NCBI GenBank assembly: GCA_963575645.1
Contig: OY754466.1
Location: 2,954,001-3,018,000 of the forward strand
Reading direction: 5' to 3'
Origin: Xanthostigma xanthostigma
Taxonomy: Eukaryota; Arthropoda; Insecta; Raphidioptera; Raphidiidae
DNA: 64,000 nucleotides
A program made the position numbers and the translations under genes. The notes beneath the pieces were generated by a model that ran no database searches, was not told the DNA's origin, and saw nothing but the letters and a program-made list of their open reading frames with translations. Position 1 is the stretch's first letter, and each line of letters begins with the position of its first letter. Shown in pieces: positions 1 to 60,884 of the stretch.

Positions 1-345
1 CGGACACTTATCCATCACGATTAATTATAAACAACAATATTCACATGAATACACGAATAAAAACATGTAAACACTGTACAGCACTTGCCCGCATGACAGA
101 CTGACTATGTGTTATACATACTACACGGTTAGCTGATGCTAACCATGGGCACCGCCATATTGGCCTTGGCTGCTCTACCGAGCGCCTACTCCGAACGCCT
201 TTCACTTTACCCCTACTCCGCGGCCGCCTGTAATGCGACATGCAACAGACGGCCAGAAAAATTCGGGGCGATAGAATAAAAGTTTCACTTTAAAAAAGTA
301 GCCAATAGTGATTTAAACATTAGATTACATTAAAAATCATTTCAG
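1..345. other. Unassigned 5' flank of the THAP gene
   Basis: The stretch is GC-richer than average around 150-260 and contains short open frames on both strands, none with a recognisable domain. A C-x3-C pair can be read on the plus strand near 229-245, but a stop follows before any splice site that would join it to the THAP exon at 346. The missing first THAP exon is therefore either here in a form I cannot define or, more likely, left of the window. Confidence 0.4.
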
Positions 346-587
346 ATTTCCAAAACATGAACAAAGCAGGAAAATATGGGCTGATATTTTGGAAGTGGAC
401 TTTAACAAAATCACAGACCATACTCGTGTTTGTTCTCTCCATTTCAAAGAGGAGAATATCGACAAAAGTGGCACTTCATGCAGATTGCTCCCAAATTCCT
501 TGCCAAAAACGAGACAAGAAATTATAGAGTTGTCCAGTGATGAGTATTCATGCGAAGACACCTGCTCCAGTATTTCTTCAAGTAATG
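346..587 (+). CDS. THAP-domain protein, internal exon (C-terminal half of zinc finger)
   Basis: The exon opens after a TTTCAG acceptor and ends at AATG|GTATGT. It is open throughout (1 + 80 codons + 1 base). The protein begins FPKHEQSRKIWADIL, then RVCSLHF, which supplies the C-x2-H half of a C2CH THAP zinc finger, followed by LLPNSLPKT in the place of the AVPTF box. THAP fingers bind DNA, and proteins carrying them include transcription regulators and domesticated P-type transposases. The first two zinc-binding cysteines must come from an upstream exon, because the start is phase 2 and the split codon would become Arg if that exon ends in AG. An acidic, Ser- and Cys-containing linker follows the finger. 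The exon is joined in phase to the one at 1356. I infer a host gene because frame and splice sites are intact, but a transposon origin cannot be excluded. Confidence 0.82.
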
Positions 588-1355
588 GTATGTATAGTAT
601 TGTTGTATTAAAAAAAATTGGTTGTCTGTAAAGTCGGTTTACGGACGATAGTTATACGTGATAACGTATTCCGTAATACATAACCTAAATTTATATAATA
701 ATTATAATAATTCGAATCTATGATATTGCATCTTTTGCTTCAAATTTAGGCTAATTTTATTTATTAAAATTACTCACCACCTATAATATAATTGTTTTTT
801 TTAACTTTCTTTCTTTCGTATTTATTTTAAGTCTCAAAGATTAACTGTCATAATATTTTGAAAACAATTGTTTCATTGTTTATATAAAATTCCAAAACCT
901 ACTTACAATATTTAAGTATTTTCATACGTCAAAAAATTGATTTTTATAATGATAAAATTTGTATGAAAACGATTTTTTCGAGAGATGAGACCTAGCTAAA
1001 ACGATTTTTTGCCCCTCAAAATCTCTTTTCAGTAAATTTCATCCAAATCGTTAGGGCCGATCATTCTGAAAATTTTCATAACGCCATAATTTTTCATTGT
1101 GAACAACACTTTTCTTAGTGACACTTTTGCGTACTATGAACGGAAAAGGTACTTTACCTGAAACGAAAAGAGGTTTTGCTCAACTGTAAAGGCCTACTTG
1201 ATTTAAAAAAATCGAAAGTAAACTAAAAATAAGTTTCAGACCAAGCAGGGCGGAATCCCAAAATATGAAATTCCAATTCGAAAATTTTTGGTCAATCTCA
1301 CCTATTGTGAACTCAATCCTGGGACATACTGTATATGTAATAAATATTTTTATAG
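588..1355 (+). other. Intron of the THAP gene
   Basis: The intron runs from GTATGT to a TTTTTATAG acceptor. It is AT-rich. It contains a partial MITE A (618-692) 30 bases after the donor, and a stretch around 920-1260 of AT-rich low-copy-looking sequence with no features I can name. Confidence 0.6.
618..692 (+). repeat. MITE A, partial copy (left end only)
   Basis: The segment shares ATTGGTTGTCTGTAAAGTCG and the following TTTACGGACGATAG...ACGTGATAACGT block with copies at 1643, 3482 and 43508. It also shares the ATTCCG...ATACATAACCTAAAT interior of the 3482 copy. The right end is missing. Confidence 0.8.
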
Positions 1356-16507: not shown

Positions 16508-17310
16508 CAGTGTAACCTCTCATAACGGACACCTCTAATGAGCGGACAGCTCTATTAGGCGGACACTATGTGATAGTCCGGAATGAAGTACAAGAGAATT
16601 CCATAAGACATAATCTCTCTTGAGCGGACTCTCTCTTGGGCGGACGCGGACGCAATATTTAAGTACAAAACTTGTAAAATTCTCTCTTAAACGGACACAA
16701 AATTAAAAATGTTGCAACACGTTGTACTATAAAAAATGATTTAGGCGAATTCATTACCATCGATAAAAACTTATTAGTAGAAGATGATGATGACACCTCT
16801 TTTAACAAAATTGTAAAAAAAGGCGACAACCTGACGTTAGTTGAATCTGACGAATCCGATGAAGAAATAACCATAACTGATCAATCTAATGCTATAAGTT
16901 ATCAGCAGACCATTGGTATGTTGAAAACAATTACAGAATTTGCCAAAACTAAAGGAGATTCAACAGCAATGCAGATGTTATCTGACTTGGAATTACATTT
17001 TCAAGACAACGTGCTTAAAACTAATACGCGTCAAACTACCATAATTGATTTTTTCAAGCCAACTAAGTTATACTTTTTATGTTTGATTTTTTGATTTCAT
17101 ACGTAGGTATGCATATTAATGTATATGAGAAAACAATAAAATTCTACCCCATTATGTAAATAAAAAATATGTATGTACATATTATGTAGTATGTATGTAT
17201 CTACATACATAATAATATGTGTTTTTTATTTTTTCCCATACGCGGACACCTCTCTTAGGCGGACATATTTTAATAGTCCCGAAGGTGTCCGCTTAAGAGA
17301 GATGTCACTG
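16508..17310 (+). mobile_element. pogo/Tigger-type DNA transposon, internally deleted
   Basis: The left end is CAGTGTAACCTCTCATAACG, and the right end is its imperfect complement ending TCTCACTG-like (ATGTCACTG). Both ends are flanked by TA. GCGGACACCTCT-type words are repeated inside both ends. The 803-bp element keeps only the transposase C-terminus. Confidence 0.9.
16708..17094 (+). pseudogene. pogo/Tigger transposase C-terminal fragment
   Basis: The frame is open for 128 codons to TGA. It contains an acidic stretch (LVEDDDDTSFNKI, VESDESDEEITI), then a helical segment with MLKTITEFAK and MLSDLELHF, and ends with RQTTIIDFFKP. The last motif fits the PCNA-interacting box Q-x-x-I-x-x-F-F, which pogo transposase is known to carry at its C-terminus. 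The helix-turn-helix DNA-binding region and the DDE catalytic core are absent, lost in the internal deletion. It cannot be functional as a transposase, although the surviving tail is uninterrupted. Confidence 0.82.
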
Positions 17311-18799
17311 TACTTATGATCATCTCCTCGGGGGGAACATTCAAACGTTTTTTTGGGAATTAGCGCTCCTAGAAACCCGAGCTCGTACCAGTCGGTCTGT
17401 GTATGTTGACTGGCAGATTCTTTAAGACACACATAGACGCCGATGATCTCAACTGTTAAGCGTCTATAATCTACAATCTCTCTCTTTCTTATGATCGTAC
17501 TCGTACAGAATCGCACTAGTGTGTGGAACCAGCTATTATCGATATATTTGAGTGCAGAAACGAAACCGGAGATTAAAGAGTAAATAGTATTTTTTTTTTC
17601 AAAACAAATGAATGTTTTGATGAACATTTTTTATGAGAATGAATAGCAAAAAGGTCTGAATATCGGAAGGCCTGCCATTTAACCCAGGCTTGTTGCTCTA
17701 TCTAATTGAAATCGAATTAAGGTTATACGCCCGATAGAGCAATGTATAGATAATACGCTGAAATTTTAATATGTTAATTATGGATATCTCATACATTCAA
17801 CTGCATTTTTTAAAAAACATTGACCGTCTAGTTTTCAAGTTATTAATTATTAAAAATGCGATTTTTAACACAGTGATAAATGAGAAGACTGACCGGAAGT
17901 GTATATAAAAATAAGATTAAACCAAATTGGCTATAGACAAATTTTTAAAAAACTGATTATTCGAAAGTTTGACTCCTTTAGATAACGTAAAAATTTAAAA
18001 AACTATACTTTCCCGTGCAGTTTTGGAGAAATATTAATTAAAAATTTTCGAAACATCTCTCAAAATCTCTATTTTCTAGATTTGAATTATGTCACCATGA
18101 AAACCAGATTACACGAAAAGTTTTTCATAAATTTTGTTTTTATTAAACAATTTTTTTGACGTAGCTAATAACTAAAACTTGAAAATTGGATATTTTCTCA
18201 TTTACCAAGTATTAAAAACTGCATTTAATATCCAATAACTCAAAAACTATACGTCTAACGGTTCAAAGGTTTTTAAAACCAAAACGTACGATAAAATCAT
18301 TCGTGTACACTGGACTTAATTAAATATACTGCTTAAGTCACAACTTTATGATATTATGTCAAATGTTTAAATATTATTTCTTAAATATTAAAAAATAAAG
18401 CTATGATCAACAGGATATAATATTTCCATAAGAAATAATAAATTTACCAAGTCATATAACATTTTTTTGTTACAACAAAATACGGACGCAGTTTTTACTG
18501 ATACGGTCGAGAGCGTATAACCTTAAGACGGAAGAACTATTTGGGCAACTTTGTTATAAAAAAGTCGATCGTCCAGTTATACTTAATGTTTCGATTTGTA
18601 CACAGTCTGCTTATAGATTTCTAAAAATGAAGTTTCATTACAAAACAACAAAGTCTTAAAATAGAAAATATGTAACGTATTTTGGAACATGTAAAAAATA
18701 TAATTTATAGATCAATACTCCAAATCCATTCACACTGCTCGAATCAAAGACGCTAAAAATTACAAATATAAATCGAACAACTGAGAATAAACAACTAAC
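17311..18799. other. Flank downstream of the distal how exon
   Basis: If the distal exon is terminal, this holds its 3' UTR. The closest minus-strand AATAAA I noticed is at 18139-18144, about 660 bases past the stop. The open frame at 17226-17627 on the minus strand shows no domain and overlaps the pogo right end. Confidence 0.35.
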
Positions 18800-18878
18800 C
18801 TTCATGAAAGAGCACCTGCTCTTTGATATGGGTGCTCCCGCATCTGGGTCAAATGCCGTCTCTGTTTTGCCGCAGCTC
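18800..18878 (-). CDS. how: how distal C-terminal exon, STAR nuclear-localisation isoform
   Basis: After a TAATGTACAG acceptor, the exon supplies GA to the single G left by the alternative donor at 28085 and reads G-AAAKQRRHLTQMREHPYQRAGALS then TGA at 18802-18804. It corresponds to the GAIKQQRR...REHPYQRA tail of Drosophila HOW and the RRHDMRVHPYQR tail of vertebrate QKI-5. There, HPYQR is part of the nuclear-localisation signal of STAR proteins. Inference: splicing to this exon gives the nuclear isoform, while read-through at 28065 gives a form without this signal. Two 3' boundaries are possible: GAAG|GTTAGT at 18800, after the stop, or GCAG|GTGCTC at 18816, before the stop, which would extend the protein into an exon I have not found. 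The exon lies 9.2 kb from its neighbour. Confidence 0.9.
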
Positions 18879-19098
18879 CTGTACATTAGGCAAGCAATTG
18901 AATTCACATAAATGATAAATATAACATTAATTAAAGAGTATAAATTAATATAATATGTCAAGATTTGTTCTCATGTCCATAAAAAAATAATCGTTATAGG
19001 TTAGGTTCATTCCAACGACTCTAGCGCTACACGTATTGAATAATGCGCTTAAGCTTTTTTGTAGCGACTAACTAAGCGCTTTATACTTTATGCTAGAA

Positions 19099-19578
19099 TA
19101 TACAGATTGCATCAAATAGGACATTCTATGTGTAAGACAGAGACGATATATAAAGATCTAAAGCAGTAAGTAAGAATGAGATAAATGATCGCTAATATAG
19201 TTACTGTGGTTACGTAAATAAATAATTACGTACACTGTAAATCTTTTTACCAATTTATCAATTAAAACAACTACAAATAAATTTATTATGTTGGCGGTTG
19301 AATTACCGCCATAAAATCATTTAATTATTTGGATTTTTTCCCGAACAGTATAAATAGTCATTTTATCAATAATTTCACTAGTGAATACTGACATTTGATA
19401 AAATTGTGATTTTTACTGTAGAAAACAAAGACGATACTATCAGATTGTATAACCACAGTAACTATTAGCGATCATTTATCTTATTCTTACTTACTGCTTT
19501 AGTGCTTTATATAATATCGTCTCTGTCTTACACACAGAATGTTCTATGGACTGTTTTGATTTGATACAATCTGTATAA
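19099..19578. repeat. Foldback MITE with arms of about 120 bp
   Basis: Left arm 19099-19214 and right arm 19447-19578 are inverted copies (AGACAGAGACGATAT... and ...ATATCGTCTCTGTCTTAC; AGATAAATGATCGCTAA is paired as well). The interior is AT-rich. Confidence 0.85.
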
Positions 19579-19609
19579 CTACAAATTAACTGGACAAAGA
19601 CAATATTGT

Positions 19610-19760
19610 AGCTCTGTTCCAACCTCTCTGCAAACGGTAATATTATCGTCTCAGTCTTGCGCAGTAGCTAAAACGAAACTGTTGATATCGGTCTTGAAGC
19701 TACTACGCAAAACTGCGACGACAATATTACAGTTCGCAGAGAAATTAGTGGAACAGAGCT
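19610..19760. repeat. Palindromic MITE (GCTCTGTTCCAAC ends)
   Basis: AGCTCTGTTCCAACCTCTCTG at the left pairs with the right end, GCAGAGAAATTAGTGGAACAG. Inner CGTC...GACG blocks also pair. A related half copy lies at 48041-48115. Confidence 0.82.
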
Positions 19761-21958
19761 TGCAAGTAATATTTTTACAATCAGGTAGCCGGCGCTACCA
19801 TTTGTATTTAAAAGCGCTGTCATTGAATGTACCCTGATCTCTAAAAAGACAACTTCATTAAGTTCTGGACTATTTTAGATAAAACGACAAATCAAATTTT
19901 CTAAATATTTACAATTGGAAATTTACAATTTGCATTCTTTCATTCATTTAAAATTGAGTACTTTTCAGATGAAATCATACTTTGAATAAATGATTATGCA
20001 ATTAAAAATTAAATATAATAATAATATTTCATATCTAATAAATTCTTTATACAATATTTTTGTACCGTAGAGTGTAGATAACACAAAGCACTTAAAAAAA
20101 AATGGCGACTACGGTAAGAGCTGCATTTTTAAAATACAGAATTATAGTTAAAAGATTAAAAGTAGCGTAACAGAATATTGAACTAAATATGTTAAATGAG
20201 GAATTTTATTGACTTGGTCCCTTCCTCTAACGGATGTTATTTCGTTTAGTTAAATTTATTTTCATGTAAGAACTACCGATCTGATATAATATGGTATCGA
20301 ATGGATCTCGGCGAATACGCATGAAAAATTTGAAATCATACAATTTAACAAAGCTTTTGTTTTAATCGGTAAAGTGTTCCATTTATAAAATTATAAATAT
20401 AATCGGATAAATAGATATTTTAGATTCCGGAAGCTCAGAAAATATAAACGGTTTGATAGAAAATTATATCGACTTTTTGTGTACGCAAAACAAAAGCGTA
20501 ACAAATTAAGCAAGCCTGAATAATCATTACAAAAGAAAAAAACATTCGCATTTTTGTATATTTTCAAATTTACGATGAAATTACACGAGTTAATAATAAA
20601 ATCAAATATCGGTTTCGCCCAATAATCGAAATGGGATATTAGTACTGGTAGTATCGGTTACACATATTAAGTATTATTAATTTTCCAATGCCAGTATCAA
20701 ATATTTGTTGGCGTACAGACGACTTCAATTCTTTTAAAACAAAAGAAGTCCGAAAACTGATCAATGACCAATACAACTAACAAACGAATCAGATTTTTCC
20801 TATTAATTTGTTTCACTTTATTTCAACACGCGTCTTTTAAAATTTTATATATCGTATGCATTTCTAGTTTCGTATCCTTTTTTCCATAGAATAAACTCAG
20901 TTAGTAAACTTAACCTCAATTGCGGTATTATTTGTTTATTTACCCTGTTCCTGATCCTGTTTTTACGGTTTACTTAAGTGAACTATCAAACAATAAGACG
21001 ATTTTACTAATAAGTTTTCTGAATATATGGTTAATAAAATTGTATATATTTTGGAGCGGTAAGCGAAAATAATAACTTCACTACCTTTTGTACTAGCGGC
21101 ATCTAATAGACTTTCTTATTTAGCATTCAATTGCTGTCACTTTATTTTAATAATGGTTATTTTAAAACGAAACATAAGAAATTCGCGGGGCACACAGGCA
21201 ATGCTTGGTTCAACACTTCATATATGAAAAAGTCCAGCCATTAGCACATAAAAAAACAGAAACCATACTTATTAAAAGGAAGAAGTGACTTTTAGAAGTC
21301 GCAAAAGACTCGAAACATCGAATCTATTCGCGTGTAAAACATAACCCCGTTTTTGTTGTCGCGCAGTCGGATAAAAAGGAAAAACGTCGCTTTAAATATT
21401 GAAAACTGACATCGGTTTCATTAATAACACTTTTTAAATTAAACGGGACCTACATATTTACAAATTAAAGAATATTTTAACTTTTGGAATGAATTTACTG
21501 ATTATATTAGAGAAAAACGATTTTAGGTCTGAATTATAAGAAATTTCCAACTATTAAAATATAAAATAATAAATACCCGCGATAAAAAAGCATAACAATT
21601 AAGTAGATAAAATTACTAACAAATATTTTGAAATAGTAAACAGAACTGCATTTCCCACACACCTATTTTAAAGGTAATAAAAAAAAAGTAACCAACCACC
21701 TGAATTATTTTAAAAGCATTTGAGGCATCGACCCTAATAGAATTAATTAAATATATATTTTTACCGACTATCAATCTTAAATTAAATACATTTAAAACAA
21801 AAAATGCAAGTCACACGCTATAAAAATAAAGCAAACGCGTTAATAAATACAATATGATTTAATAACTAATATTGACAGTGCTATTTTAATACGAAATTAC
21901 GTAACGGAACGATCTGGTCATACGGAGCTATTAATTATGTAAGTGGTATCATATATAT

Positions 21959-23343
21959 TTTTTAGAAAAAACCTCACAATTTCTCCACATAAATTATGTA
22001 TCATTTTACAGATAACTGCTTGCTCTACTGACATCAACAACTAAAAAATTTATTATTGCTTTTGTTTTTGTAAATTAATTAAAATACAGCAACGCTGAAC
22101 AACGTCTGCCATCTGACGGCTTTAATTTTGAAACAGCGAGCAACGCTGAACAACGTCACAGCAATGCTGCATGATGCCATCTGATGGCTTAGCTCAACGC
22201 TTTTGCTACTTGCGCCTCTATATGACAATTTTAGTAAAATATTTCTTCGATCTGTCATCTGAGCTTCATATTGTAATTAGTGATGGGAATATCTCGAAAT
22301 AAAATACAGAATCATTCGATTATTAAAATATCTCGAGATATCTCGAGAGGTTATTAAAAATCACTCGAATGATTTTTAGTAAGTATATACTAAGTAGTAA
22401 CATCTTTTATCTGCCTCTGTTCTATGAAGCACTGCATCCAGGCTACTCTATTGTATTAGCTATTAAAGTCTAAAGAATCGAAACCTCTAAGTCGAGATGA
22501 ATGCAAACTTCATTCAGAATGTGTTTATACTGCGAATGAATTCAATCGAACCTCGATGCCTCAAACTAATATTTTAGGTCGAATGAAGTTTCATTTTGTA
22601 TATTTTGTCTTCACTGCTCACGGCTAGCTTGCGGTAACCAGTAACATCGTTCGAGAACGTCCTAAACCACTCGAAATATACCTTTCGAGATATACAATGA
22701 GTGAATTCTGTCCGCGAGAGAATTTTGTCCAATCTCTCAATTGGTTTTATTGCAGTGTTTTGCGTAATGCGTTTACGACTACCAGAAATAGATGTACACA
22801 CTACACAGTACCACACTACATTTTATAGTTTATACTTTTATAGTTTATTAATTATTTAGTAAAAATAAAAATATAGTACCTATAAATTGAAAGATTGCTA
22901 TTGAAATGGAATAATTTGTTTTATATAATATATATTATTATGTATTTCTTCCAGTTAATTATTTTTGCTAATGAAATAAAAGTTTTGTGTTTTAATGTGT
23001 GCTGTAATATATTAGTATTAAGGTGGGTAAGTAGTAACTACCTATAGTAAACTAAATACTACGAGAATATTTGTTATACTCATTATAATGAAACATCTCG
23101 AAGGTAACATTTCGAATGAATCATTCGATTATCAAAATCATTCGAGTAGCAACCTTTCGATTATTAAAATCATTCGATTATTCCCATCACTAATTGTAAT
23201 ACAACAAAAAGAAGAACGTTATAAGCAGCGTGCAAAATTAGAAACGAATTGAATACCTGCAATCATATTTAAAAAATAATTTTGTAAAGTGATAATAATT
23301 ATTATACTTATTTAGTGCGAATAATTCGCACAGGTCACACTAG
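21959..23343 (+). mobile_element. Helitron-like element E, copy 1, split by a hAT insertion
   Basis: The right end has the hairpin GTGCGAATAATTCGCAC about ten bases before CTAG, followed by T: the layout of a Helitron 3' end. Without the hAT insertion at 22278-23192 it is about 462 bp and aligns with 39347-39865. The interior repeats the words CAACGCTGAACAACGTC and TGCCATCTGA. I do not see a standard TC 5' end, so it may be 5' truncated. Confidence 0.72.
22278..23192. mobile_element. hAT-type element inserted in Helitron-like E
   Basis: The ends are TAGTGATGGGAAT and ATTCCCATCACTA. It is flanked on both sides by the exact 8-bp duplication ATTGTAAT (22270-22277 and 23193-23200). The copy of E at 39347-39865 has a single ATTGTAAT at this point, i.e. 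an unoccupied site. Subterminal CATTCGATTAT words repeat in both ends. The 80-codon minus-strand frame at 22574-22816 has no domain I recognise, so the element is taken as non-autonomous. Confidence 0.92.
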
Positions 23344-23367
23344 TCTATCATAATGTATATAGTAGTG

Positions 23368-23470
23368 TTGATCCAATAGAAAGAATGTCACGAAAAGGAG
23401 GGTTTGGTTTTTATTCGCTAGTGGCCAACGTTTCGAAAAATGTATCTTCATCTTCAGGGCCTCAAGCTGG
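23368..23470 (-). repeat. Penelope-type fragment with hammerhead-like motif, copy 1
   Basis: On the minus strand, 23462-23416 reads CCCTGAAGATGAAG...TTCGAAACGTTGG. This has the CUGAnGA and GAAA blocks of a hammerhead ribozyme core, separated by a short stem that could form GAAGA/UUUUC. Penelope-like elements are known to carry such ribozymes in their terminal repeats. The copy at 56323-56450 shares this block and the words GTAGTGTTGATCCAA. Confidence 0.5.
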
Positions 23471-23670
23471 TCAAATGGTGGTAAATTGTTCTATCATAAT
23501 GTTGAGAAAAGGGCACTTTAACGAATATTCTCAATACTAGATAACAATTTTTTTTTTCAAATCCTAAACAATTCCTTTACTAACAGTTTTTCTTTGTAGT
23601 CTAAAGCGACCCATCCCTGTTTCAACTGGATGCGATAGATATATTTTTAGTTATCGGAAAATTCTACAAT

Positions 23671-24060
23671 AGTATATTGTGCAACTAGTGCGACAATGCC
23701 GCACGAGTTGCACATACTATTTTTTATTACGAATTAAATTAAATTAAAATTTTATTACGAATTAAAAAAAGAAATTAGAAGTAATAAAAATTAAAATTAA
23801 ATCATTAAAAAGTTGAAAATTCAGTTAAAACTGTCAAGAAAAGTCCATAATCGAAAATTTTAACCTCAAATCTGCGTAAAATGACAGTTTGTTTCGTTGA
23901 CATTAACACCGTTATTATTTTGTTTTTTTTCTCTGAATTTGCGTGCGGCAAACAATAATTTCAGTGCGACAAATAAAGTTTCCGCACGCAAATGAAAATA
24001 GCTACTTTTCAACCGTAACAGCGTGCGTAAACATACCACTTTTCCCGCACGAGTAATAAA
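23671..24060. repeat. Dispersed repeat Y, copy 1
   Basis: Starting near TATTGTGCAACTAGTGCG, it is about 390 bp and nearly identical to 35027-35413. An inner block of about 100 bases (AAATCATTAAAAAGTTGAAA...) also occurs in the TTAA-ended elements at 43466 and 44942. Confidence 0.85.
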
Positions 24061-24778
24061 AAAATGTATTTCGTTTGCGGCGCGGCTACTGAACTAATAG
24101 CTTTGAGCAAATTCTGCCAGATTGATTAAAATAGCACTAAATCAATATTAAAATAGATTGAACAATGTAATAAACTATTTTTGAAATTTTGTTGGTTTTT
24201 TAATAATTGCAGAACTATAATGTCAAGCGCGTTGTTTATTTAAGGGAAAGTGATGTTTATTTAAATCCGCAACAATTAGAAATAAGTGTATCCGTTTGTT
24301 ATGTAAAAATAGCATGTAACTGTTCAGCGCGATGTATAAACAATGGAAAATACTAGCTACCTAATTTAAATTTTCTACATCCAATATACAAAATACTTAA
24401 AATAATAATGTGATGTTTTTTCAATGAGATGATATTTTATTATATCGACTTTTTATAAGGACTAGCAGCAATTAAAATGATTCCGTTTATTTAATAAACT
24501 TAAAATCACTGGCGAAAAATATGATTTATATTTACTGGGAAAAGACTCCAAATAGCACCAAGTATTCACGATTAATTATAATAAAAAATAGTCTAAAAAT
24601 ATATATTAACTCTGCATTACCACAGTTCAGAACCGAATGACAAATATTCATCAATCCCAGTTAAATTTAAACAAACTAAAAAGTCAGTAAGATACAAAAA
24701 AGGGTAATAACTTTGCAGTGGGTTCAAGACTACCGTATTTTCGAATTACGTAGCTACATGAAGCGCCAAAATTCTTTT

Positions 24779-25281
24779 AATAGGTCATATGCATGTATTT
24801 TTTTTATATTTTTAATAGATTATTTAGTCAACCATAATACGGAAAAAAATTGCTAATCATTTAAAAATGTAATATTATCATAAGAAAAAAATATTAAATT
24901 TCACATTCAAAATTAGACAGTTTAAACAATCGGCTATATTGGCGGGCTTATGTGACGTCATGATATATGATGCATGTCAACCTTGATGTCAAATTGTTAA
25001 TGTTCTAAATGAAGTTTATTTGTTGTTTTCTCTGAATACTGACATAATCTTACTGTGAGACGACACAGTCGTCATGGAAACTGTTGTTGATATATACTCT
25101 GACGTCACGCTGCGTTTTGAAAATTCGAAAATAGCGCATATTTTCTACATTTCTTTTTTATTATTTATATTTTTTTCAGTGATTAGATTAATAAAATATC
25201 CATTACGATAGAATCAGGAACTAAAATATATTTCGAAATAAAAATTTAAACCAATTTTGAGTCTCATGCATATGACCTATT
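24779..25281. mobile_element. 504-bp-class TIR element, family C, copy 2
   Basis: It has the same ends and interior as 4518-5021, in the same orientation, with TGACGTCA at 24953 and 25100. Divergence is low across the full length. Confidence 0.88.
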
Positions 25282-26183
25282 GTTGAAGTATGTTCTTGCT
25301 AACATCGGCTATCATATCATCGGCACCAAGAGTAAGAATATGCCAGAAAAACAAAATTCAAGGGAAAAACAAAAGGAATTTAATTATTTAATGCGGGGAA
25401 ACACGAGACTTATAACCTGACTAAATTGTGAAGACTATAGCTGCCGGGAAGCCATATCGGTTATGTGTTCATCTTTAGTGTTCCGTGCAAAACGGAACAC
25501 ATATTATGGAATCACTCCGGTGTCCGTCCGTTCGTCTGGGATATTTATTGATGTAAACATTTGAAATTTGGCACAGAGGTAGAGTAAGATGGTCCAAACA
25601 CAGACGTGAAATAGAAATAATTGAATTTTAATTTTCTCTGAAATAACTTACCAGGAATAAACAAAGCTGACTTGAATTTAGTGTGATAGGTAGACCGGTA
25701 GCGACGCCTATGATTACGTATTTGAACTAAACTTACATTTAACTGGGTTTGGTGAATAATAAGCTCGAGTCACTTTTATTTCGCAAATACGAATAGAATT
25801 TTGACAACCCGACGAGAAAAAGGAATTTTTTGATTTCCAAATGAAGTGATGTCATTTTATAGAATTTAATGACAATTTATTTTGCGAATTTCTTTAACGT
25901 GTGGCAATTTCGAATAACAAAAAAAAAACGCTTTACTGTATAATGAAAACCCACATAAAAATTTAAAAATTAACAGGTCTATTATTTTTAAAAATAAATC
26001 TAACACTAATAAATTTTTTTTAAAGCATATTTCCAAGCATTTACGTTGAGGTAAAAAAAGATAGCAACAAACAAGCATATACAGGCATTCAGTATGAAAA
26101 TAGGCATTTTTTTAATATTCTTCTTATCGATATTCTTACAGAGACCATCCTGAGTAAGCAGTAGGTATATTAATAAATGAGCA

Positions 26184-26354
26184 TTTTGGTTCAATTGTTT
26201 TAAATTGCACTGCCGACTGTCATTTCTTTCTGTGTATTAGAAAAAAAATGTAATCTACTTTTTTATAATTTTGGTTCAATTGTTTTAAATTGCACTGACG
26301 ACCGTCATTTCTTTCTGTGTATTAGAAAAAAATATACCTTATCTATTTTTTTAT
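26184..26354 (+). repeat. Tandem duplication, 85-bp unit
   Basis: Two head-to-tail units begin TTTTGGTTCAATTGTTTTAA, at 26184 and 26269. They differ by a few substitutions and small length changes in A/T runs. Confidence 0.9.
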
Positions 26355-27591
26355 AATAAAGTTGGCAGTAGTATCATACTGTTGGTCCGATTGCAAATAA
26401 TAACTAAAATTTCACACCTACAACACCAAAATATATTTACGTAAAATTTTGAAAAGTAAAGTTTTCTTATGAACTGTACTATTTGTTTGAGGCAAAAAGG
26501 ACTTCAACAAAAAACTACTGATTTTAGAAATCGGAATTTTGGTTATTTTTCATTTTCTCTCGACATGCTCATATTTCTACACGTGAAGTTTTTTGTGTTT
26601 GTAATTGGATATATATAATATTTTACTGCATATATTTAATATTCGAGAGACAAGGCAAAAAGTTGATCTATCGCAATTACCTCGATCCAATAACACAAAT
26701 TATTTTACTCGAATAATCGTTCTCTGCAAGCTTGTTAAGTTTTTTGTTTAATTAAACAAATGATCTAATTTCATACTGTTTTTGTTTTTTGTATATATAA
26801 ACACGGATGCCTGTACGTTTTCCAAATTAAAAAAAGTACTACAATATGGACCATGGATCCAAAAATGTGCTATATCAATTTTTCTAAGACTAAAAAAATG
26901 ACTTATCTAAAATGATTTTAGAGTGGTAACGATGTGAATGAAAATTGCTAAATGCATGATCTTATAACAAAATATAGAGATATATAAATGGTAAAAATAA
27001 TATAAAACAAATATATTACTTTAATCTTACTACAATAATATAAATACTGAATAATATAGTGTATGTAAAAATTTGCAGTTTTCTGTTATTTCAAATAATC
27101 AAATCTGGAACCTATTTTTTTCTGTTTTTGTAAACTATGAAATCAAATTATTTGCATTGTATCAAAATGAATTTTGCGAAATGGAAAAACAGTTCGTCGA
27201 AAATCATATTATGTATTAATAATACATAAATTTGAAGCACAATATCACAGTAAAATACCTAGAGATATATATAATATATAATTTTTACAGTATGTGAAAT
27301 AATTAAATAATAATAAATTGCTATTTTACATAAACTTTATAAAATATGTAAAAATTTAAATTAATTAAAGAGAGACGTTTTAATTCTTCTAATTTAAAAT
27401 AATAATTAATAACTCTGTAATTTGCTTTTTTTTACTCACGTAAAATACACAACAAAGTCTACCCGTTAACAGAATTTAATTATCAAAAAAAAAAAAAATG
27501 CACGTTAACTGCAAATGCCCTCAGTGTCCTTATCAAAGATTAATACAACAGGCCTTGTCGAGTAATGAAGGCTCAAAAAAAAAAAAACCCC
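26355..27591. other. Unassigned AT-rich intron sequence
   Basis: No feature was recognised. Confidence 0.4.
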
Positions 27592-27829
27592 CTTTGCACT
27601 CCGGGAGTGCCTGCCGAAGTGAAAACTTGAATATTAACGTCTTACGAATTTTCGATCAAAATGGTTTGTATCATAGATTGCATTTTTATGTACGATATTT
27701 CAACGCTAGATGTCTAACGTTGTATAAATAAAAATTGTCGATCAGGTCACGTGTCCTGACGCGAGTTTTACATTTTTTACCCATTATACAAAAAAAGTGT
27801 ACAACGCCGCTAAAGAAGTTTTCACTTCA
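27592..27829. repeat. Repeat H, copy 2
   Basis: It matches 6866-7104 almost throughout, same orientation, starting at TTTGCACTCCGGGAGTGC and ending at AAGTTTTCACTTC. Confidence 0.8.
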
Positions 27830-28064
27830 AAAACTTTAAAGTAAATTCGTAACAAAAGTCAATTGGTTTATCGAAACAGAGAAACGTTTAAATGGGAACA
27901 TTAACTAATTTGAACAGACATTAAAAATGCATCCAGCCGATGGGGCTACCGGATGCCAAAGATGACGTCATTGAAACAGAAGAAGGCGACGACGAATTAT
28001 AAACTCTAAAGGCCTGCGCAGGCGCATTGGGATAATGCAAGGACACGGAGGTGGGGGCGTTATG

Positions 28065-28396
28065 TCAGCGTGCAAACAACCCACCCGAATGATCTGCCGT
28101 GGCGTATTCGGCGGTGAGAAGAGGTGATGCCGCCGCCAGAGCCGCGTAGTTGGCGTAGTCTGCGTACGGCGTGTATATCAGGCCGTGAGGATCCGTCGGA
28201 CACGTCGCTCCGCTCAATAAGCTGGCGGCCGTCGTCGGAACCGACATCCTCGGCGACAGGATCAACGGTGCTCCGAGCGGCGTCGCGGGCGTCCTCAAAG
28301 GCGTCGCGGCTAATCCGGGCATCGACGCTGGCGACAGTAATCTCTGCGTTTCGGCCGCAGCTGCAACTGCGACGCGACGCCATTCTTCATCGCAAG
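28065..28396 (-). CDS. how: how C-terminal region exon with read-through stop (short isoform)
   Basis: The TTTATTCGTAG acceptor at 28397 adds CT to the single G of the upstream exon, giving A-CDEEWRRVAVAAAAETQRLL. This and the later APLILSPRMSVPTTAASLL and GLIYTPYADYANYAAL blocks are diagnostic of insect HOW, the Quaking orthologue. The proline- and alanine-rich segment is the STAR-protein tail after QUA2. Read straight through, it ends ADHSG-GLFAR and TGA at 28065-28067. An internal donor, TCGG|GTGGGT after base 28085, has exactly the phase needed to join the exon at 18800-18878, replacing GLFAR by the nuclear-localisation tail. HOW/QKI control splicing, export and stability of mRNAs with ACUAA elements; in flies they act in muscle, tendon and glia. 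GC content is much higher than in the surrounding intron. Confidence 0.96.
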
Positions 28397-31863: not shown

Positions 31864-31966
31864 CTGCAGCTGCAGCTGCTTTTGCACTGGAATCTCTGTA
31901 TGTTCCATTTATAATGGCTAATTCCATCAATTGGCGTTTCTTTAATTCATCTTCACCATCAGCTTG
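31864..31966 (-). CDS. how: how exon encoding the QUA2 region
   Basis: Acceptor TTATTATAG at 31967, donor GCAG|GTAATA at 31863; 34 codons plus one base, phase 0 to phase 1. It reads [20 protein letters not shown] then [14 protein letters not shown]. The [19 protein letters not shown] block is the QUA2 segment of STAR proteins, which packs on the KH domain and reads the 3' part of the RNA site, and is almost unchanged from fly HOW and vertebrate QKI. The alanine-rich end replaces the more variable residues after QUA2. It is only 243 bases from the next upstream exon. Confidence 0.97.
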
Positions 31967-32209: not shown

Positions 32210-32350
32210 TGGCACTAAAAGTTTCTTGACTTCATCTACAGCTCTCTGTAATTTAACTTTAGCTCGGTTTTCTGTATCTTCTACTGTTAATAAAACGTGT
32301 AATTCATCTGTGAGATGTTCCCAGTTGGGTTTTCCTCGATTCTGATCCTC
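32210..32350 (-). CDS. how: how exon encoding the C-terminal part of KH
   Basis: Acceptor TTAACAG at 32351, donor CCA|GTAAGT at 32209; 47 codons, phase 0 on both sides. It reads [20 protein letters not shown] then [20 protein letters not shown] and VKKLLVP, the last strands and helix of the maxi-KH domain. [10 protein letters not shown] and HVL(L/I)TVED are hallmarks of the HOW/QKI/GLD-1 group. It is joined in phase to the KH core exon at 33391. Confidence 0.97.
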
Positions 32351-33390: not shown

Positions 33391-33507
33391 CTTCTTTTTG
33401 TCTCTCATCGAACCTTTGCCTCGAACCATTATTTTACAGCCTGTTTCTTGTTCTAACTGTTTCGCCGTCATTCCTCTAGGACCCAATATACGTCCCACGA
33501 AATTGAA
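33391..33507 (-). CDS. how: how exon encoding the KH core (GPRG loop)
   Basis: Acceptor TTGTTTCAG at 33508, donor AAG|GTAAAT at 33390; 39 codons in phase 0. It reads [20 protein letters not shown] then [23 protein letters not shown] is the GxxG loop that contacts RNA backbone in KH domains, and [19 protein letters not shown] is the most conserved segment of the STAR family. This exon is separated from the next upstream exon by 25.6 kb. Confidence 0.98.
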
Positions 33508-59133: not shown

Positions 59134-59267
59134 ATCTGGATGTTCTTTGACAGGTACATAAACCTTTTCTGTGAGTGTTGTGACAGGGCCATCTGCTTCA
59201 GGTAGCACCAGTGGCTCTTTTTTCACTCCATTTATTTGAAACAAACTTGCGCGAACTTTGGCTATTT
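59134..59267 (-). CDS. how: how exon spanning the QUA1-KH linker and start of KH
   Basis: Acceptor TTTCAG at 59268, donor CCAGAT|GTAAGT at 59133. Two bases complete a Glu codon from the upstream exon, then 44 codons follow: IAKVRASLFQINGVKKEPLV, LPEADGPVTTLTEKVYVPVK, EHPD. EIA(K/R)VRASLFQINGVKKEPL is practically identical to fly HOW and specific to insect HOW among STAR proteins, and EKVYVPV(K/R)EHPD starts the KH domain. It is joined in phase 0 to [12 protein letters not shown] at 33391. The QUA1 dimerisation exon and start codon must lie above base 64000. Confidence 0.97.
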
Positions 59268-60884
59268 CTGAAACAAAAAATACACATAAATAATTAAATT
59301 ATTAATCGATTGGAAGCAAACCTTACGTAAATAGATCATTCGTTATTTCGTAAAGCAAAACTCAGTGACACTATTAAAATCAATATAGGTACATAAAATA
59401 AGTTTAAAAGCTCTATCAAGTAGTATAAATAAGCTACTTTTGGATCGTAGAAGGCAATAAGGTGATTAACCAATCTTAGGTTCTTTGAATCAATTTTTTA
59501 CTGGTTTGTTTTAAAATATTGTAAACTTGTTTGTGAATGTTATAGGACAGATGGAAGAACAAACACACGTTTGAATTCTGTGCCTTTTGCTTATTGAGCA
59601 ATAAACATATATTTATTTATTTATTTAAAACTGCCCCTCCTCCAACATTTAATTCCGGTCGCTAATATACAAAGATCAATTTATCCATAACAAGCTGACC
59701 CGGCGTACTTCATAACCGCCTAACAGTCAAAGAATGTCGTGGACTCGTGTTAACTTTTAGCTAAACTTACTTTAGGATTTTAATAACGTAATTTGTTTTT
59801 TTTTCTCAAATCCAAATAACAATTGAAAAAATTTGTAACAATGTGCCAACAAATAGAAAAATTCCAAACAACGAAAAAAATAATGTTAATGTATTTCAGT
59901 TACAGTTTGATGATACCAGAATTTTTTGTGTCGCTATACATTTCTCTATTTTGATCACTTTCAAAACAGTGTTCTGTTTTAGAAAAGTATGAATTTGACG
60001 AGCTATAATAGCGCATCTATTATATAATAAATTGTCAAGTTCAAGGTTTCAACTGTATATATGTGGCTTAATATATGGACGACACATGTCGACTGAAGCA
60101 GTCCCGTTAATCCAATTCAATATAGTTATTTAATACAACTCGAAGACAAGTTGATTGTCACTTCGTTTCATATTTTAATGTCACAATGTGTGTACTAAAC
60201 TCGTTAACGGTAATTGTGTCAAGTGGACTATGACAAACAAATCATTTGATGGTGGAGAAAATAGCTGTTTATATTATTATTTTACTATTGTTCGTTATTG
60301 TTATTACACGCAGAGTTGGGAATAATCGAACGGTTTTAATAATCGATAGGCTGCTATTCGAACGACGTTGATAATCGAATGATTAATTCGAAATTACTCT
60401 TTCGCATATCACTACATATTGTAACAAAACTGAGTGTTGCGTGCCCTCTGTTGGGACGACTATGGCTTCTGTAGAATCTTATAAAACAAAGTCTCACCGC
60501 CGCGTCTGTCTGTCTAAACGCGATAAACTCAAAAACTACTGAACGAATTTCATTACAATTTCCACCAATGGACGGAGTGATTCAAGAGAAAGGTTTATGT
60601 GTATAATTCGTTAATGGTTTGTGTAAATTGGTTGAAAATAAGTTTGCTCTGTTTCCTTTGATATTGTACATACTTATAGAAAAAGTTATTCTATATATCT
60701 ATTCTGACCATTCGCAACCTTGTATCTCTTTTAGTTTCGAGATATAGCCGATTTTAGCTATTTAAATTTTAATTCATTTTAAACCGTCATAGAGTCTAAA
60801 CTAATCGAGATACGACTTTGTGCTTAGGCCTAATCGATTTAGCGTACTATTTTCTATAAAACAGTATAGTATATAATATGAAAT

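Follow-up and report, generated by a model that had tools for sequence, protein, structure and literature searches.

Where in the large gene how of Xanthostigma xanthostigma does the coding sequence for a nuclear tail reside, and does the same gene also encode an end that would leave the protein outside the nucleus? In Drosophila, according to the accessible passages of PMC12107169, PMC12868882, and PMC3315481, how produces a nuclear L form and a cytoplasmic S form that differ at the C terminus. Here we consider a stretch of 64 kb (the window; C3:2954001-3018000, on contig OY754466.1), the minus strand of which carries six exons of a single gene, exons 2-7 of the insect orthologue of how/quaking. 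On the strength of the sequence, we place a probability of about 0.82 on the reading that the gene is how, that its distal exon 7 is a real exon, and that exon 7 encodes a nuclear tail.

The identity of the gene, which the initial annotation had given as how, is borne out by domain content and by structural relatives alike. The coding parts of the seven exons (133 nt for exon 1, counted from the ATG, then 134, 117, 141, 103, 312, and 79 nt for exons 2-7) join into a predicted long HOW protein of 338 aa, MSENNGNN...HPYQRAGALS. Within this protein, Pfam recognizes QUA1 (STAR_dimer, 96.1 bits against a cut-off of 26.3) and the KH domain, the latter both as KH-I_KHDC4-BBP (PF22675; 66.2 bits, cut-off 30) and as KH_1 (26.5 bits, cut-off 21.5), while QUA2 is present in the alignment to the PDB entry 4jvh, which runs through residue 207. 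Of 18 PDB sequences with a listed E value of 1e-10 or lower, Protein quaking (4jvh) is the best match, at E 9.2e-86, followed by GLD-1 (4jvy) at 6e-78. Exon 6 taken alone has no Pfam match; the phases, together with what we take to be a likeness to HOW, fix the frame in which it is read. At least 11 places in the genome match the HOW protein, seven of which are this locus; the other four listed, two on C10, one on C8, and one at a distant site on C3, are 36-51% identical. As judged from these comparisons, the genome appears to have a single orthologue of quaking (how in flies), namely this locus. No retrocopy that would reveal the spliced mRNA appears among the genome matches listed, and no relative of the 338-aa protein was confirmed in viral contigs (0 of 4 pattern stretches) or in prokaryote genome contigs (0 of 36).

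The seven exons follow one another in order on one strand, a single frame is kept across every junction, and all introns are GT-AG (Table 1). Exon 1 lies outside the window, at C3:3148128-3148260, 130 kb past its end, and the gene spans about 175 kb from the ATG to the stop of the L form. Introns 1-6 measure 134.9 kb, 25.6 kb, 1.0 kb, 243 nt, 3.5 kb, and 9.2 kb. The first of them occupies C3:3013268-3148127, that is, from window position 59268 to beyond the end of the window.

Table 1. Parts of how within the window, by window position
Feature	Position	Strand	Sequence details and basis
Exon 2 (QUA1 end, linker to KH)	59134..59267	-	phase 1 to 0, ttttttgtttcag/.../gtaagt; STAR_dimer match extends to residue 62
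Exon 3 (KH domain)	33391..33507	-	phase 0 to 0; KH Pfam matches; PDB Quaking alignment
Exon 4 (KH end)	32210..32350	-	phase 0 to 0; best PDB match of the exon peptide is Protein quaking, E 8.3e-21
Exon 5 (QUA2)	31864..31966	-	phase 0 to 1; aligns to QKI in 4jvh
Exon 6 (common C-terminal region, end ADHS-G)	28085..28396	-	phase 1 to 1; acceptor ttgtttattcgtag, donor CGG/GTGGGT at 28084
Possible read-through tail, (G)GLFAR + TGA 28067-28065	28065..28084	-	sequence; short form inferred
Intron 6, 9206 nt	18879..28084	-	exon chain
Exon 7 (putative nuclear-signal tail GAAAKQRRHLTQMREHPYQRAGALS, TGA 18804-18802)	18800..18878	-	phase fit, QKI-5 tail match, G+C 0.53
Donor GTTAGT immediately past the L stop; points to an intron in the 3' UTR	18794..18799	-	4.5 bits vs -0.5 for GTGCTC at 18815

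Exon 7 has a stop-to-stop frame of its own of 27 codons, and the initial annotation had singled it out for a phase that fits exon 6 and for a motif shared with QKI-5 and nuclear HOW. Both observations hold. With its acceptor at 18879/18878, exon 7 joins exon 6 in phase (1 to 1); the translation across the junction is ...ADHSGAAAKQRRHLTQMREHPYQRAGALS, and the long protein ends SGAAAKQRRHLTQMREHPYQRAGALS. The exact motif HPYQR occurs once in the six frames of the surrounding 324 kb, namely in exon 7, so that no other exon bearing it lies in that region; order-2 Markov nulls yielded one match in 30 copies of 324 kb.

Further comparisons bear on whether the interval 18800-18878 might be a chance open frame outside how, which we consider extremely improbable. 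Using as query the QKI-5 tail, in the form of an antibody peptide printed in an excerpt of PMC8139980, a phmmer search of all frames of at least 15 residues in 324 kb (14,986 frames) returned exon 7 as the best match, at 15.2 bits and E 0.013, with the next frame at 7.0 bits. The aligned residues are GA-A-K-RRH--MR-HPYQR. Against this gapped score, the best matches in 10 null sequences reached 6.7-10.3 bits, which argues against chance, as does the joint fit of phase, acceptor, and gene order. The G+C content argues in the same direction, changing from 0.24 before the exon to 0.53 inside it and 0.29 after it, and therefore both borders look real. The acceptor has pyrimidines at 10 of 18 positions, compared with 6 of 18 for the acceptor of how exon 4. 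A presumed tail sequence of fly HOW(L) also matches exon 7 when used as a query (E 5.9e-5).

Other comparisons were more favorable to a chance frame. In an ungapped comparison with QKI-5, exon 7 scored 40, a value equaled or passed by 7 of 20 nulls; this score is unremarkable because RRH and MR are set two residues further apart in the exon-7 tail. The Pfam model Quaking_NLS matched the 25-aa tail at 20.6 bits (E 3.4e-4), under its curated cut-off of 22.9 bits, and the 129-aa C terminus at E 0.0076, likewise under the curated cut-off, and a scan of the complete 338-aa protein at E up to 0.01 did not list it. Two scans of the whole genome (623 Mb, 28 contigs) missed exon 7 as well: that with Quaking_NLS listed two other places, at 16.4-16.7 bits, and that with the QKI-5 tail returned no matches. 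It was also expected that a longer open frame in another phase would cover the exon, and such a frame is found at 18656-18961 (101 aa). Annotation could miss exon 7, in which case the species would appear to be without nuclear HOW. More generally, exon 7 as read here illustrates that, in a large insect gene, the exon for the nuclear tail of how/quaking can stand by itself, separated by 9.2 kb from the other coding sequence upstream.

With exon 7 taken as part of how, we propose that the donor of exon 6 at 28084 is spliced to the exon-7 acceptor at 18879, which would give the protein a basic tail ending MREHPYQRAGALS. By analogy with QKI-5 and HOW(L), this tail should direct the protein to the nucleus. 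The TGA of exon 7 lies two bases short of the exon end, such that translation would finish inside the exon, and the transcript probably splices onward from 18799 into exons of the 3' UTR. Two possible distal donors had been named for this exon, and both are present: AAG/GTTAGT at 18799 scores 4.5 bits, within the range of the other how donors (3.15-7.51), and beats CAG/GTGCTC at 18815, which scores -0.5 bits. Since the donor at 18799 follows the stop codon, the predicted tail ends AGALS and the next exon would be untranslated. An intron in this position has a parallel in the fly: the methods of PMC12107169 describe amplifying the how(L) 3' UTR "in two parts ... (to exclude the intron)".

Where the splice from exon 6 to exon 7 is not made, the protein would lack the nuclear signal and be cytoplasmic, like HOW(S). 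The initial annotation had described the exon-6 donor, GTGGGT, as weak. Our donor scores are rough, being built on textbook frequencies. On a uniform background, CGG/GTGGGT scores 3.15 bits, the lowest of the seven how donors, with those of exons 4 and 5 close by at 3.51, whereas against the AT-rich composition of its surroundings only one of the other six scores higher, and it belongs to the top 0.13% of GTs. Its rank therefore flips with the background, and a weak donor is not established.

The simplest candidate for the ending of a short form is obtained by reading on past exon 6. Beyond the donor at 28084, the frame continues as GGLFAR and closes with a TGA (28067-28065) whose last base lies 20 nt beyond the donor, the position at which the initial annotation had put the in-frame stop after GLFAR. 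Such a stop is a common occurrence: 5696 of 18017 GTs on that strand in 324 kb (32%) are followed by one in that phase within 20 nt, and read-through stops come 21-108 nt beyond the six other how donors. The GGLFAR stop alone is therefore weak evidence for a short form. Past this stop, the first AATAAA is 2183 nt away and the first ATTAAA 584 nt, with the weaker poly(A) variants GATAAA and CATAAA at 192 and 374 nt. The distant AATAAA counts against the short form; the how(S) 3' UTRs of the fly are described as much shorter than those of how(L), with none shared between the two (PMC12107169). Of the original claim that how makes two C-termini, the long splice chain and its tail stood up well, whereas the read-through short form fared less well, its stop being commonplace and its AATAAA 2183 nt off.

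As a cytoplasmic HOW(S) is established in Drosophila, we nonetheless think it likely, by analogy, that a second C terminus of how, cytoplasmic like HOW(S), exists in Xanthostigma xanthostigma; that it arises by reading on past exon 6 is a fair guess. The nuclear exon may be right while the short form ends in a terminal exon of its own within the 9.2-kb intron 6, in the manner of mammalian QKI-6 and QKI-7, or does not exist; GGLFAR would then be intron sequence. We see in this a real possibility, though one we are inclined to doubt. It gains from the frequency of in-phase stops after GTs and after the other how donors, from the absence of AATAAA over the 2183 nt past the GGLFAR stop, and from the exon-6 donor itself, whose nine positions are all able to pair with U1, three as wobble pairs. 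Mammalian qkI, moreover, has separate exons 7a, 7b, and 7c, as stated in the available portion of PMC5548867. Set against this, the G+C content stays exon-like (0.4-0.6, in 30-nt bins) past the donor to about 27911 and then drops to 0.27, as if the exon went on, and no other terminal exon is known in intron 6.

A further open frame follows the short-form stop. On the minus strand at 27921-28064, the same frame stays open for 47 codons after the TGA (context TGA-C), reading HNAPTSV...GSPIGWMHF up to a TAA at 27923-27921, and it is near this stop that the G+C ceases to be exon-like. It is very improbable, in our estimation, that the TGA is sometimes read through, which would add a longer non-nuclear C terminus to the two proposed for how. 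Such an extension would be open with a probability of 0.31 given the local dinucleotides and of 0.053 for the wider region, and 1161 of 8180 G+C-rich windows (14%) are open. Its codon score of -19.5 exceeds those of the other two forward frames but is negative; two of the three frames on the opposite strand score above it (-12.1 and -15.5), and 398 of 3000 open nulls match it. Apart from the G+C step, stop read-through over these 47 codons finds no support.

The proposed choice between exon 7 and reading on could itself be subject to control by HOW. In this scheme, nuclear HOW would set its own tail choice by binding the candidate element CCTAACCTATAAC, which precedes the exon-7 acceptor by about 125 nt and holds a degenerate CTAAC..TAAY pair at 19005. 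Autoregulation of this kind is possible, but we rate it as unlikely. Precedents are provided by mouse QKI-5, which regulates splicing of the tail exons of its own transcript (PMC5548867, in part), and by QKI, which represses exons from upstream sites (an excerpt of PMC13004596). NCTAAY..TAAY pairs are also somewhat denser in intron 6 (7 in 9206 nt, 0.760 per kb) than around it (0.546 and 0.494). Conversely, a CTAAC..TAAY pair is present in about 2% of 150-nt windows, and strict sites are rarer in intron 6 than around it, at 0.109 vs 0.235 per kb for ACTAAC and 0.217 vs 0.602 per kb for CTAAC. Strict ACTAAY is likewise absent from the 300 nt on each side of exon 7 and from the first 300 nt beyond exon 6.

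Comparison with known systems places this locus on familiar ground. It resembles Drosophila HOW(L)/HOW(S) in having a candidate long form with a nuclear signal and a predicted intron in the 3' UTR, both read here from the sequence. With vertebrate QKI-5/6/7 it shares the STAR domain (4jvh, E 9e-86) and, in the tail, a QKI-5-like MR-x-HPYQR; it departs from QKI-5, however, in having two more residues that separate RRH from MR and a short stretch after HPYQR. The short tails of mammals come from separate exons, 7a and 7b (PMC5548867, accessible text), whereas here the short tail would perhaps come from reading on. C. elegans GLD-1 has the same QUA1-KH-QUA2 region with a weaker match (4jvy, E 6e-78) and is described, in part of PMC12868882, as a single cytoplasmic isoform. 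Because a pair of nuclear and cytoplasmic HOW forms is known in Drosophila, such a pair is not new, and the how locus is ordinary: flies and mammals alike have a gene of this kind with both protein ends, and nothing new is learned here about the biology of the Drosophila HOW(L)/HOW(S) switch. Among the titles and abstract openings that our literature searches listed, none dealt with this tail exon in any non-Drosophila insect; PMC3654919, on butterfly oogenesis, contains the phrase "held out wings".

Elsewhere in the window and the genome, several other features were recorded. A plus-strand frame at window positions 317-628 carries a THAP domain (35.6 bits, cut-off 23.9), and a longer frame with no Pfam match follows it at 1202-1618; the THAP-domain frame could be transposon-derived or a THAP gene. 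Another plus-strand frame, at 16678-17091, encodes an acidic product of 138 aa in which Pfam recognizes nothing at E up to 0.01; the TTIIDFFKPTK near its end we take to resemble the end of pogo/Tigger-type transposases. On the mitochondrial contig, C28, tRNA-Gln and tRNA-Met (the latter identified by eye) stand just before nad2, followed by cox1. In our judgment this contig and the HOW protein are those of an insect. The gene arrangement is not the lepidopteran one, but a search with the 30K-lipoprotein family PF03260, a lepidopteran family, gave one partial match above its cut-off (28.5 bits, cut-off 25; positions 121-187 of 231), a result that favors the opposite conclusion. Finally, cox1-like pieces occur at C6:1195571-1196020, with three TGA and two TAA codons, and on C2, with one TGA, and these may be nuclear copies of mitochondrial DNA.
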